A stretch of 64,000 nucleotides of DNA from Kineococcus aurantiacus (GTDB lineage: Bacteria > Actinomycetota > Actinomycetes > Actinomycetales > Kineococcaceae), in contig NZ_JACCBB010000001.1 of the NCBI RefSeq assembly GCF_013409345.1, positions 4,526,001 to 4,590,000 of the forward strand. The letters run 5' to 3'. This document shows, piece by piece, positions 37,048 to 58,171 of the stretch. The position numbers and the translations under genes were made by a program. Position 1 is the stretch's first letter; the number at the start of each line of letters is the position of its first letter. The notes under the pieces were generated by a model. That model was not told the origin of the DNA, did no database searches, and was given only the letters and a program-made list of their open reading frames with translations.

Positions 37048-38858
37048 GCGCCGCGGCGGCCCCTGCCGCCGTCCCGGCCCCCACGGCCAGCGTCCGCGAC
37101 CTGCACGTGTCCCTCGAACGCGACGGGGTCCGCTCGGAGGTGCTGCGCGGCGTCGACCTCGACGTGGCCCGCGGCGAGATCGTCGGGCTCGTCGGGGAGT
37201 CGGGGTCGGGCAAGAGCATGCTCGCCCTCAGCGTCCTGGGCCTGCTGCCCGAGGCCGCCCGCCCGCACGTCACCGGCCAGGTGCGGGTGCTGGAGACCGA
37301 CATGGCGCACGGCCCGGAGGCCGCCCGCCGGGCCGCCCGCCGCACGGCGCTCGGCGCGGTGTTCCAGGACCCGATGACCTCGCTGAACCCGACCATGCGC
37401 ATCGGCCGCCAGATCGTCGAGGCCGGGCAGGACCGGGACGGAGCGGTCCAGCTCCTGGGGGCCATGGGCGTCCCCGACCCGCAGCTGCGGTTCCGGGTCT
37501 ACCCGCACGAGCTGTCCGGGGGCCTGCGCCAGCGGGTCATGGCGGCCATCGCCATCGCCGGCCGCCCCGCCCTGGTCGTGGCCGACGAGCCCACGACCGC
37601 GCTCGACGTCACCGTGCAGGCGCAGCTGCTCGCGCTGCTGCGCGAACTGCGCGACGACCTCGGGTGCAGCGTCCTGCTCATCACCCACGACCTGGGCGTC
37701 GCGGCGCAGATCGCCGACCGCATCGCCGTCATGTACGCCGGCCGGCTCGCCGAGGTGGGCCCGACCGCGCAGGTCCTCGGCGCCCCCGCGCACCCCTACA
37801 CCGCGGGCCTGCTGCGCTCACGGCTGTCCCTGACCGTCGACCGGTCCCGGCGCCTGCCCACGCTGGCCGTCGACACCCTGACGCCCGCGGACCGCGCGCA
37901 CGGCTGCGCCTACCGGGCCCGCTGCCCGCTGGCCGTCGACCGCTGCGCCACCGCGACGCCGGGGCTGGAGGACTCCCGGCCGGCGCCCGGCCACGGTGCC
38001 GCCTGCTGGTTCGGCGACGAGACCGTCCGCACGGCGACCACCGCGACCACCGCGACCACCGCGACCACCGCGACCGCCGCGCCGGCCCCCGACCGCCCCG
38101 CCACCGCCGCGCCCGCCGCGGGACCGGCGGTCGTCCTCGACGACGTCGTGGTCACCTACAGCACCGGCCACGGCCGCCGGCGCCGCACCGTGGAGGCCGT
38201 CCGGGGCGTCAGCTTCGAGGTCGCCGCAGGAGAAGCCCTGGCCATCGTGGGGGAGAGCGGGTCGGGCAAGTCGACCGTGCTGCGGGCGGTCGCCGGGCTC
38301 GTCCCCGTCGCCTCCGGCCGCGTCACCGTCGCCGCCGGCGGCGCCCAGATGGTGTTCCAGGACGCCGGTTCCTCGCTGACCCCCTGGCTCACCGTGGGGG
38401 AGACCCTGCGCGAGCGGCTGGCCCCCCTGCGCCTGGGCCGCGCCGAGACCACCCGGCGGGTGGAGGAGGCCCTCGCGGGCACCGGCCTGCCCGCGTCGGT
38501 GGCCCGGCTGCGCCCGGTCGACCTGTCCGGCGGCCAGCGCCAGCGGGTCGCCCTGGCCCGTGCGACCGTCGTGCGGCCCGCGGTGCTGCTGTGCGACGAG
38601 CCGACCAGCGCCCTGGACGCCTCGCTGGCCGCCACGACCCTCAACCTCATCCGCGAGATGCGGGAGGAACTCGCCATGACCGTCCTGTTCGTCACCCACG
38701 ACCTCGCCGTCGCCCGGTTCGTGGGCGACCGGATCGCCGTCGTCGAACGCGGTCGCGTCGTCGAGATCGACGACGCCGAGTCCGTCATCGGCGCCCCGCG
38801 CGAGCCCTACACCCGCGCGCTGGTCGCCTCCGTGCCCGAGATCGAGGTGGTCCGGTGA
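37044..38858 (+). CDS. Dipeptide-type ABC importer ATPase, two ATPases fused (DppD-DppF)
   Basis: A 604-residue protein with two complete ATPase domains. The first (about 1-310) has [27 protein letters not shown] and an oligopeptide-transporter C-terminal tail with the Cys-rich [14 protein letters not shown]. The second (about 350-604) has [27 protein letters not shown]. They are joined by a Thr-Ala repeat linker encoded by a 9-bp tandem repeat. The importer needs two ATPases, normally from two genes; here one chain supplies both. It powers the two permeases and binding protein that follow. GTGA overlap with both neighbours. Confidence 0.92.
38034..38073 (+). repeat. 9-bp tandem repeat encoding the Thr-Ala linker
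   Basis: About 4.5 copies of a CGACCACCG-type unit. Being a multiple of three, copy changes only lengthen or shorten the Thr-Ala-Thr linker between the two fused ATPases and keep the frame. Confidence 0.6.
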
Positions 38859-55194: not shown

Positions 55195-55219
55195 CGTCCC
55201 GCCCGTGGCCGCGGACGGG

Positions 55220-55270
55220 GTTCCGCCGGTCGCGGGGTCCCGCCGGTCGTGGAGTTCCGCCGGTCGGGGG
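55220..55270. repeat. Three tandem 17-bp repeats
   Basis: Three units of the form GTTCCGCCGGTCGnGGn (copy 2 starts GTCCC) in register, 17 bp each, in the 230-base gap between the convergent TetR and DHFR-like genes. No gene or hairpin explains them. Confidence 0.55.
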
Positions 55271-55973: not shown

Positions 55974-56069
55974 CACTGACCTTCCGTCGTGGGTGTTCGG
56001 GCGCGGAGCGAGGGACCGCGCCGGGTCTGATGGGGGAGTTCGCCGGTCCCGCGCCCGGGCCGGCTCGCG

Positions 56070-56534
56070 CTACCTCGACCTCGGCAGCGAGGAGGCGATG
56101 AGCGGGACGACGACGGCGGCGGCGACCAGGTGCAGCGCGGACAGGACCGCGGCGGTGACCGCGTCGGCGTCGACGGACCACGGTGCCGGCAGCGACAGGG
56201 CCGTCAGGACCGCGGAGGTCCCCACGAACGTCCGGGCCGGCCGGGCGGCCCACCGGCGCAGGACCAGGGCGACCACCACCCCCGCGCCCGCGGCGACGAG
56301 CGTCACCACGGCGAACCCGACGAGCGGGATGCCCGCGCCACCGTCGGGGACCTCGAACCGCACGCCGCCGGCCCTGGCCACGGCGGCGACGGCCGTGACG
56401 ACGACCGCGGCGGCCGGTCCGGCGACGGCCCCCCGGGCGATCGTCCCGCGCGGGCCGCGCGCCACCGCGGGACCGGTGGACGGGGCGCGGCCCGTCCGGT
56501 GGGGTGGGACTGACGGATCGCGCTGACCGGTCAC
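56070..56534 (-). CDS. Four-helix membrane protein, DUF6069-like
   Basis: A 154-residue membrane protein with four hydrophobic spans: AVAGPAAAVVVTAVAAVARAGGV, GIPLVGFAVVTLVAAGAGVVVALVLRRWA, TFVGTSAVLTALSLPAPW and AVLSALHLVAAAVVVPLIASSL. The order, with FEVPDGGAGIPLVGFAVVTLVA after the first helix, matches DUF6069-type proteins of unknown function. GTG 56534 is chosen because GAGGAG stands five bases upstream; the same frame stays open through an 8-bp tandem repeat to 56681. It is divergent from the MocR regulator. The message probably begins near 56681 and so carries the repeat in its 5' leader. Confidence 0.68.
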   Translation of the reverse strand: MTGQRDPSVPPHRTGRAPSTGPAVARGPRGTIARGAVAGPAAAVVVTAVAAVARAGGVRFEVPDGGAGIPLVGFAVVTLVAAGAGVVVALVLRRWAARPARTFVGTSAVLTALSLPAPWSVDADAVTAAVLSALHLVAAAVVVPLIASSLPRSR

Positions 56535-56551
56535 GGGACTCCTCGGGCTGG

Positions 56552-56684
56552 ACGGCTGCACGGCTGCACGGCTGCACGGCTGCACGGCTGCACGGCTGCA
56601 CGGCTGCACGGCTGCACGGCTGCACGGCTGCACGGCTGCACGGCTGCACGGCTGCACGGCTGCACGGCTGCACGGCTGCACGGC
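56552..56684. repeat. 8-bp tandem repeat array (about 16.6 copies)
   Basis: Perfect head-to-tail copies of ACGGCTGC over 133 bases, with no mismatch seen. Because eight is not a multiple of three, all frames are open and encode repeated octapeptides, and a change of one copy shifts the frame. The array lies between the minus-strand -10 (56688-56693) and the start of the DUF6069-like gene, so it would be transcribed as its leader. Confidence 0.9.
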
Positions 56685-56687
56685 GCG

Positions 56688-56693
56688 ACGCTA
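56688..56693 (-). promoter_or_regulatory. -10 element for the DUF6069-like gene
   Basis: TAGCGT on the minus strand; transcription would begin near 56681, at the edge of the 8-bp repeat array, about 147 bases before GTG 56534. Confidence 0.42.
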
Positions 56694-56699
56694 GCTGCG

Positions 56700-56728
56700 G
56701 GAAGTGGACCTCGATAAGGTCCACTTCC
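56700..56728. promoter_or_regulatory. Perfect 29-bp palindromic operator before mocR
   Basis: Arms GGAAGTGGACCT (56700-56711) and AGGTCCACTTCC (56717-56728) are fully complementary with a 5-base centre. It ends at the base before GTG 56729 and contains the mocR -10 TAAGGT (56715-56720). It also covers the -35 region of the divergent gene, so one bound protein could shut both. Confidence 0.65.
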
Positions 56729-58171
56729 GTGGCGATCCCGTGGTCAGGTCGAGGGGGTCGTCTCCTGGTCTCCGTCGACCGCCGCAGCCCCCGACCGGTC
56801 CGTGAACAGGTCGAGAGCGGTCTGCGCGAAGCGGTCCGGTCGGGCCGACTCAGCGCGGGGGAGCACCTCCCGTCCTCGCGCGCGCTGGCGGAGGAACTCG
56901 GTGTCTCACGGGGTCTGGTGCAGGGCTGCTACGAGCAGCTCGTGGCCGAGGGCTACCTGACCGCCAGGGCCGGTTCTGCGACGCGGGTGGCCGAGCGCGT
57001 CGTGCCTCCCAACCCCGCGCCCGCCCCCAGGGACGAGCCGGCGCCGGCCCCGTTCGTCGACCTGCGGCCCGCCGTGCCCGACCTGGGGTCCTTCCCGCGC
57101 AGCAGCTGGTCCCGCTCGGCCCAGGAGGCCCTGGCCGCCGCGGCGAACTCGGCCCTGGGTTACCCGCCCTCGAACGGTTCGCCCACCGTCCGGGCCGCCG
57201 TGGCCGAGCACCTGCGCCGAGCGAGGGCGGCCGACGCCGACCCGTCCCGCGTCGTCATGTGCACGGGTTACGCCCAGGGCCTCGTGCTCACCGTCAGGAG
57301 CCTGGTGGCGCGGGGCCTGCGCGACATCGCGGTCGAGGACCCCGGTCACGGACCGGACGAGAGCCCCGACGTGCGGACCCTGCGGCTCGCCGGGGCCCGG
57401 GTGCACCGGGTCCCGGTGGACCACCTCGGCCTCGACGTCGAGGCGCTCGCCGAGTCCCCCGCCCGGGCCGTCGTGGTGACCCCCGCGCACCAGGCGCCCA
57501 CGGGGGTCGCCCTCGACCCGGGCCGACGCCGGGCGCTGATCGCCTGGGCCCGGACCCGCGACGCGTACGTGGTCGAGGACGACTACGACTCCGAGTTCCG
57601 CTACGACCGGCAGGCGATCGGCACGGTGCAGGGGCTGGCCCCCGACCGCGTGTTCCTCCTGGGCACCACCAGCAAGACCCTGGCCCCGGCGCTGCGCATC
57701 GGCTGGCTGCTCGCGCCACCGACGTGGGCGGAGGTGCTCGCCCGGCACAAGCACCTCGAGGACCGCGGCTCACCGACCCTCCACCACGACACGTTCGCCG
57801 TGATGCTCACCTCCGGTCGCTACGACCGCCACCTGCGGGCGATGCGGAAGACGTACCGCCGCCGGCGGGACGCCGTGTGCGACGCCCTGGCCGCGCACGC
57901 CCCGCAGGTCCGGGTCAGCGGACTGGCCGCAGGGCTGAGCATCACCCTCCACCTGCCCCCCGGGGTCGACGAGGCCGCGGTCGTCGCCGGTGCCGCCGAG
58001 CGCGGTGTGGTGCTGCGCGGCATGGACGCCTACCGCGCCCACCCCGCGCCGGACCAGCCGCAACTGGTCCTCGGTTTCGGGAACACCGACGAGCGTCGGC
58101 TGCGGGAGGCGATCGCCTCCCTGGCCGACCTGCTGCAGGGGCGGTCCCCGCACAGGCCGCCGAGCCGCTGA
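56729..58171 (+). CDS. MocR-type regulator: GntR HTH fused to aminotransferase-like PLP domain
   Basis: A 480-residue regulator. Residues about 10-80 are a GntR winged helix (RSPRPVREQVESGLREAVRSGRLSAGEHLPSSRALAEELGVSRGLVQGCYEQLVAEGYL). Residues 110-480 are a fold-type I aminotransferase domain with GYAQGLVLTVRSL, VVTPAHQAPTG, DYDSEFRYDR and the PLP lysine in TTSKTLAPALRIGWL. MocR proteins sense vitamin B6 or amino compounds and commonly control a divergent gene; here that is a DUF6069-like membrane protein. GTG 56729 is set by the -10; the frame continues upstream through the 8-bp repeat but lacks support. Confidence 0.9.
   Translation: MAIPWSGRGGRLLVSVDRRSPRPVREQVESGLREAVRSGRLSAGEHLPSSRALAEELGVSRGLVQGCYEQLVAEGYLTARAGSATRVAERVVPPNPAPAPRDEPAPAPFVDLRPAVPDLGSFPRSSWSRSAQEALAAAANSALGYPPSNGSPTVRAAVAEHLRRARAADADPSRVVMCTGYAQGLVLTVRSLVARGLRDIAVEDPGHGPDESPDVRTLRLAGARVHRVPVDHLGLDVEALAESPARAVVVTPAHQAPTGVALDPGRRRALIAWARTRDAYVVEDDYDSEFRYDRQAIGTVQGLAPDRVFLLGTTSKTLAPALRIGWLLAPPTWAEVLARHKHLEDRGSPTLHHDTFAVMLTSGRYDRHLRAMRKTYRRRRDAVCDALAAHAPQVRVSGLAAGLSITLHLPPGVDEAAVVAGAAERGVVLRGMDAYRAHPAPDQPQLVLGFGNTDERRLREAIASLADLLQGRSPHRPPSR

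Follow-up and report, generated by a model that had tools for sequence, protein, structure and literature searches.

A perfect octanucleotide array at a predicted leaderless start codon in Kineococcus aurantiacus: a possible copy-number-dependent frame switch

Background

Switches based on repeat length are best known from host-adapted bacteria. In translational simple-sequence contingency loci the tracts lie within the 5' part of the open reading frame. The nearest precedent for the locus considered here is formed by the 7-8-bp tracts that precede the Haemophilus influenzae genes hmw1A and hmw2A, reported as TGAAAGA in 13-38 copies and GCATCATC in 12-15 copies (PMC2651432). In Actinobacteria, the nearest described cases are both from Mycobacterium tuberculosis: the VNTR upstream of lpdA, whose copy number is variable between strains and linked to expression (PMC9213004, citing Akhtar 2009), and phase variation by homopolymer indels, as in glpK (PMC11868660). 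Long-unit repeats have also been described in Xanthomonas and Nostoc, where heptamers of the GGGAATC and GGGGA(C/T)T types form tracts of 2 to 26 units (PMC4692102). Finally, a 5' ATG or GTG was reported to be both necessary and sufficient for initiation on leaderless mRNAs of mycobacteria; upstream ORFs with RTGA coupling are over-represented in these bacteria (PMC4633059).

We analysed a stretch of 64,000 nucleotides of the K. aurantiacus chromosome (the window) containing a perfect octanucleotide array in the 5' region of a DUF6069 gene. It shares with the hmw tracts the unit size (7-8 bp), a comparable length in copies and a position in the 5' region of a single gene. However, the hmw tracts lie about 70-210 bp upstream and the heptanucleotide is thought to act on transcription, whereas the window tract begins at the predicted start codon (PMC2651432 for hmw). 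The host is different as well, being a high-GC actinobacterium without a MutS match. The resemblance to translational contingency loci is that the unit is not a multiple of three and lies downstream of a predicted start codon, so that copy changes would shift the frame. On the other hand, the predicted start codon here is within the first repeat unit, at the predicted 5' end of the mRNA, the tract is open in all frames, and a second start preceded by a Shine-Dalgarno box follows it.

As in the leaderless and RTGA-coupled upstream ORFs of mycobacteria, a GTG would stand at the 5' end, with RTGA coupling or out-of-frame overlap as the possible fates. The mycobacterial relation is fixed, whereas here it would be set by the number of repeats (PMC4633059 for mycobacteria). 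The M. tuberculosis homopolymers share with what is proposed for the window array frame switching of the slippage type in an actinobacterium, but are described inside genes and not at a start codon (PMC11868660). The lpdA VNTR is likewise an actinobacterial intergenic tandem repeat; unlike what is predicted for the window array, it is not presented as a frame device in the source consulted (PMC9213004). The Xanthomonas and Nostoc heptamers are similar in being long-unit tandem repeats, but two Xanthomonas genomes are reported to carry 186 and 183 G-rich patterns, and the window array is a single locus (PMC4692102).

No description of such an octamer tract in a GC-rich actinobacterium was found in titles and abstracts of the open-access literature, nor was a start codon inside a repeat unit combined with a predicted leaderless 5' end found in the titles, abstract beginnings and passages retrieved. 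If GTG 56681 is used, repeat length would be read at the very 5' end of the mRNA, joining slippage to leaderless translation in what would be a clean test system.

Octanucleotide array

The following features of the region are referred to below (window coordinates).

56552..56684, minus strand: perfect octanucleotide array, minus-strand unit GCAGCCGT, 16.62 copies
56688..56693, minus strand: predicted -10 box TAGCGT, its distance to the first array GTG being exactly 6 nt
56679..56681, minus strand: first array GTG, predicted transcription start and leaderless start codon, opening a 203-aa ORF (56070-56681)
56539..56544, minus strand: Shine-Dalgarno-like GAGGAG, 4 nt before GTG 56534
56070..56534, minus strand: DUF6069 gene (PF19545), Shine-Dalgarno-type start GTG 56534, 154 aa
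55425..55976, minus strand: RibD_C-type reductase gene (PF01872), downstream of the DUF6069 gene
56702..56726, no strand assigned: perfect inverted repeat AAGTGGACCT-CGATA-AGGTCCACTT, about -45 to -21 relative to the predicted DUF6069 start
56729..58171, plus strand: MocR-type regulator gene (PF00392 and PF00155), GTG start 8 nt after TAAGGT

The array occupies 133 bp (56552-56684) and consists of 16.62 copies of ACGGCTGC without a single mismatch; Tandem Repeats Finder widens it to 56546-56684 at 99% matches. A search of both strands of the 5.03-Mb, two-contig genome with the three-unit 24-mer in the register of the array yielded a single locus, with 14 overlapping matches all within the array. 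None of ten other genomes of the genus contains this 24-mer. As background, 800 kb of the same chromosome (roughly one sixth of it) was sampled in 40 segments of 20 kb. This sample contains one other perfect period-8 repeat of at least three copies, with 3.62 copies, so the tract stands far above the background (16.62 versus a maximum of 3.62 for this period). The longest perfect repeat with a period of 4-40 and at least three copies in the same sample is 74 bp, with a 16-bp unit. In two other genomes of the genus, 400 kb in total contained no perfect period-8 repeat of at least three copies. None of the 21 DUF6069 and MocR homologue loci considered has an octamer array.

A first-pass annotation of the window had reported about 16.6 flawless 8-bp copies between 56552 and 56684, in the 5' region of the DUF6069 gene and adjoining a divergent MocR-type gene; its coordinates and copy number proved exact, and the siting is correct. 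It had also placed a -10 box by the array. A candidate is indeed present, TAGCGT on the minus strand at 56693-56688, but a strict sigma-70 consensus scan found no promoter in 56450-56800.

Same unit in other genomes

In a collection of 84,980 species, 24 other stretches from 22 genomes contain at least four copies of the ACGGCTGC unit in one register. Their copy numbers range from 4.0 to 12.9, those of 4.0, 6.9 and 12.4 belonging to stretches that are cut by a contig end; the window array is the longest seen with this unit. No flank shared among the 24 stretches was seen by eye. None lies inside a called gene, the caller being a crude one, based on positional GC, that assigned 69% of the bases in the 24 loci as coding and was weak at four of them (coding fraction 0 in L042, 0.25 in L059, less than half in both L045 and L063). 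The leaderless mark described below is on the array itself in none of the 24; one has it 34 nt before the array. The idea that the unit sequence is special was rejected, as the 24-mer occurs in two of 394 genomes of the class, its own included, and the reversed control also in two.

Leaderless promoter and start signature

The promoter-side edge of the array reads TAGCGT-CGCGCC-GTG (56693-56679), that is, a TANNNT-type -10 box ending 6 nt before a GTG. This TAGCGT is the sole minus-strand TANNNT in 56501-56760. In the 800-kb sample together with the window, TANNNT stands exactly 6 nt before 35 of the 429 gene-start-like ATG or GTG codons, whereas the remaining spacings in the range 0-39 give between 0 and 7 such cases each; before the 21,320 other ATG and GTG codons its frequency at 6 nt is 0.94 per 1000. 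With the window left out, TAGCGT has this spacing at 6/390 gene-start-like codons versus 1/19,565 others, and it is the commonest leaderless hexamer (6 of 31). Its share in relatives is 4/9 in one genome (G004) and 2/13 in another (G009), tied there with two others.

Genome-wide, TAGCGT-N6-RTG occurs at 38 sites, compared to five for the reversed pattern. Gene-like ORFs are opened at 26 of the 30 sites examined, the site of the array not among them, by a lax test that 12,560 of 35,683 ATG and GTG codons (35%) without these elements also pass, many of them presumably internal codons. Moreover, the start classifier requires an in-frame stop within 90 nt upstream, and TAG or TAA at spacing 6 itself supplies such a stop. 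Thus a comparison of codons matched for TAG or TAA is fairer. Among codons with TAG or TAA at the same place, 35/164 are gene-like without T at the sixth base and 33/42 with it; all seven codons with TAGCGT are gene-like, as are 22 of the 26 with TAYNNT, which has no stop. TARNNT-N6-RTG was observed 42 times, versus 2 to 7 times at spacings 0, 3, 9, 12, 15 and 18.

In this genome TANNNT-N6-ATG/GTG marks gene starts, as would be expected for leaderless mRNAs. With the array edge matching this mark, the G of GTG 56681 is the probable first transcribed base. A GTG recurs every 8 bases in the array, so that a genuine -10 box would be found at the leaderless spacing from some array GTG by chance in about one of eight placements. 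The 54 leaderless-type promoters collected from three genomes yielded no -35 motif; the best candidate in the window is TTATCG, with three of six positions. The TAGCGT-N6-RTG signature could help in correcting gene starts within the genus.

Start of the DUF6069 gene

The DUF6069 gene matches PF19545 with 100.7 bits (cut-off 27.2; query region 56070-56537), and the longer 203-aa reading still matches it, with 99.7 bits. The product is a probable membrane protein, as predicted from its hydrophobic stretches; we found no paper on DUF6069. The RibD_C-type gene downstream is a possible operon partner.

The start of the gene is ambiguous, being either GTG 56534 with its GAGGAG or the leaderless GTG 56681 in the first unit of the array. 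Both are in the DUF6069 frame at the assembled copy number. Leaderless genes usually, though not by strict definition, have no competing Shine-Dalgarno start downstream, and here GAGGAG precedes GTG 56534. A Shine-Dalgarno box is nearby in only 3/31 leaderless-type starts, and thus the DUF6069 locus is atypical. As the GAGGAG is a good box of a kind rare at leaderless-type starts, the gene may start at GTG 56534. However, the frequency of such a context at gene starts is only about 2.7 times that elsewhere (107/390 versus 2018/19,565). The shorter reading agrees with the ORF of a homologue in another genome (G137), which has 150 aa, close to the 154 aa counted from GTG 56534; the crude gene caller, too, treated the array as intergenic, with coding starting 86 nt below it. 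A stop codon in another frame, TGA 56533-56531, overlaps GTG 56534, forming GTGA.

Reading frame and leader structure

The array contains no stop codon in any frame, and all three frames give a QPCSRAAV octapeptide period. From GTG 56681, 16 units lead into the DUF6069 frame and a 203-aa ORF; 17 units lead to TGA 56533-56531, which overlaps the Shine-Dalgarno-preceded GTG; 15 units lead out of frame through the gene to 55384. Thus the frame changes as expected of a contingency locus if GTG 56681 is used, its use being predicted from the signature only.

The first-pass annotation had suggested that copy changes would switch which upstream GTG or ATG frames read into the gene, and would also alter leader structure. 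The first suggestion is right in that the frame meeting the gene changes, but the upstream GTG or ATG is the wrong handle, since for each copy number from 12 to 21 the array itself provides GTGs in frame; the useful handle is GTG 56681, at the predicted transcription start. Outside the array the only minus-strand start codon up to 56760 is GTG 56724, in the DUF6069 frame at 14, 17 and 20 copies, and there is no ATG. The structural effect was not borne out by folding predictions, in which pairing around the Shine-Dalgarno box and GTG 56534 barely changes between 8 and 24 copies. Over this range, the predicted unpaired fraction of the box is 0.52-0.57 for a transcript from 56680 and 0.24-0.25 for one from 56724, and GTG 56534 is mostly paired throughout (unpaired 0.04-0.06). 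An RNA-structure switch is accordingly not supported (fold z -0.82, accessibility near constant with copy number), and no known RNA family was found in 56000-57000 at E up to 1. Expansion driven by DNA hairpins is not supported either, as 95 of 140 permutations of the unit, itself included, form hairpins at least as stable.

Divergent regulator

The divergent gene encodes a protein with a GntR winged helix (PF00392) and a class I/II aminotransferase domain (PF00155), the composition of MocR-type regulators. Classical PdxR loci adjoin pdxS and pdxT. The protein scores 375.8 bits against the NCBIfam PdxR model (cut-off 320), but the genome's sole pdxS-type match (PF01680), at C1:416224-416841, is remote from the window; its 3.6-kb locus contains four single half-site-like words. 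As pdxS is distant and the exact inverted repeat occurs only in the window, we consider the regulator as MocR-type and not as PdxR by function.

The inverted repeat at 56702-56726 covers the candidate MocR -10 box TAAGGT (56715-56720) and may be the MocR operator. The pattern AGTGGACC-N3-9-GGTCCACT has one match in 12 genomes of the family, which is this repeat. Among 11 upstream stretches, that of the window included, the half-site GTGGACC or its reverse complement was observed near the starts of MocR homologues in G008, G010 and G151, and farther off in G111 and G120. The half-site resembles the TauR box CTGGACYTAA as quoted in PMC5320631. However, all 14 homologue loci lack the strict inverted-repeat patterns, half-sites alone recurring, and thus the operator prediction is weak. 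The array should lie outside the MocR transcript; the predicted MocR -10 box and start are on its other side.

Conservation of the locus was considered but rejected. Identities of the best MocR matches among the ten other genomes of the genus (G008, G010, G001) amount to 44-47%. The DUF6069 protein has a match in one of the ten (E = 6.6e-4). In a sample of 198 genomes of the order, with up to 19 candidates scored per genome, at least ten others have a DUF6069 match; in none of these ten, drafts included, is there a MocR match (E up to 1e-20) nearby, and thus the pairing of the two genes is not conserved. The closest MocR homologues of the genus (L010 in G008 and L011 in G010) appear by eye to be divergent from a gene encoding a multi-helix, transporter-like protein of DMT/EamA appearance.

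Proposed frame switch and alternatives

The best explanation, to which we give slightly less than even weight, is that an octanucleotide tract has expanded within the first codons of a leaderless mRNA, with the frame set by copy number. RNA polymerase would use TAGCGT (56693-56688) and start at G56681, the first base of the GTG in the promoter-proximal unit, and the ribosome would begin on this 5' GTG and read through the array; translation of the array would follow if the mycobacterial 5' GTG rule holds in this host. Gain or loss of copies should shift the frame of the message, as the array sits at the apparent start of transcription and translation, and would leave the start itself unaffected, because the first unit always supplies the GTG. 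With 16 full units the frame would enter DUF6069, and the product would be 203 aa long and begin with a QPCSRAAV-type repeat. An additional unit would make the leader ORF stop at the GTGA (56534), with GAGGAG before it, allowing coupled re-initiation, and one unit fewer would take it out of frame across the gene to 55384.

The array, the promoter and start signature with its statistics, and the frames are seen in the sequence; we infer transcription and translation from 56681, slippage, cell-to-cell variation and DUF6069 output differing between states. MocR would probably control the DUF6069 promoter through the inverted repeat. The complete scheme, a three-state translational phase switch that diversifies a probable membrane protein under a MocR-controlled promoter in an actinobacterium without a MutS match, is unlikely to hold in all its parts. 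In it the states would alternate modulo three: fusion to DUF6069 at 13, 16 and 19 copies, termination at GTGA with coupled re-initiation at 14, 17 and 20, and out-of-frame run-through to 55384 at 15 and 18. MutS (PF00488) has no match in the genome, and 11 of 14 control genomes gave one; as action of MutS on an 8-nt loop is doubtful, the lack of a match supports slippage only weakly. The genome has one NucS, and indels are reported not to be corrected by NucS (PMC8228993).

Several other explanations have to be weighed against an expanded leaderless tract. The main rival is an inert satellite: a short GC-rich leader would have expanded recently and neutrally, its length hardly mattering, and the gene would start at GTG 56534. 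This is a substantial possibility, though the less likely of the two. It agrees with the Shine-Dalgarno box at GTG 56534, with predicted pairing around this codon that is nearly independent of copy number, with the location of all 24 other ACGGCTGC stretches outside called genes, as in an ordinary satellite, and with a three-unit 24-mer no less rare than its reversed control in the 394 genomes of the class. Against it stand the leaderless promoter and start signature exactly on the first array GTG and the length of the window array, the longest seen with this unit (16.6 copies, others 4.0 to 12.9). Tuning of transcription, where copies would alter promoter output via spacing or alternative starts as in hmw1A and hmw2A, seems improbable. 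It has a precedent in the hmw tracts, with units of 7 and 8 bp (PMC2651432), and the array adjoins a divergent promoter region with a probable operator; but both predicted -10 boxes and the inverted repeat are on the MocR side of the array, and thus copy changes leave the spacing between them unaltered.

It is still less probable that the repeat is a fixed N-terminal domain of the 203-aa protein, retained for its peptide. The open frame 56070-56681 does encode a QPCSRAAV-type repeat, and apart from DUF6069 it gives a single, sub-threshold Pfam match, to Cornifin (16.1 bits, cut-off 34.8). However, an octamer array is present in 0/21 homologue loci, and a DNA repeat without flaws would suggest recent expansion rather than long selection on the peptide. 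An assembly artefact or a wrong copy number is hardly credible, given that the assembly has two contigs and that 133 bp should be shorter than one ordinary read.

Other repeats

Several other tandem repeats were noticed. At about 1920117-1920253 of contig C1 of the same genome (L090:117-253) there is an array with a 16-bp period, made of GTGATC(G/A)AGCAC-type units, the later ones reversed; it includes 4.62 perfect copies of GATCACGGGAGTGCTT with units in opposite orientation (L090:175-248). It lies just in front of a gene-like ORF that begins near L090:318 and, judged by eye, resembles TetR in its first residues; the array is possibly a multiplied operator. In the window, a 17-bp tandem repeat of 3.3 copies (CGGGGTTCCGCCGGTCG, 84% matches) is found at 55216-55270, between the TetR-type and RibD_C genes. 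An imperfect 9-bp repeat at 38030-38120 contains 4.67 perfect copies of GCGACCACC (38034-38075); its unit is a multiple of three, and the repeat is perhaps coding.
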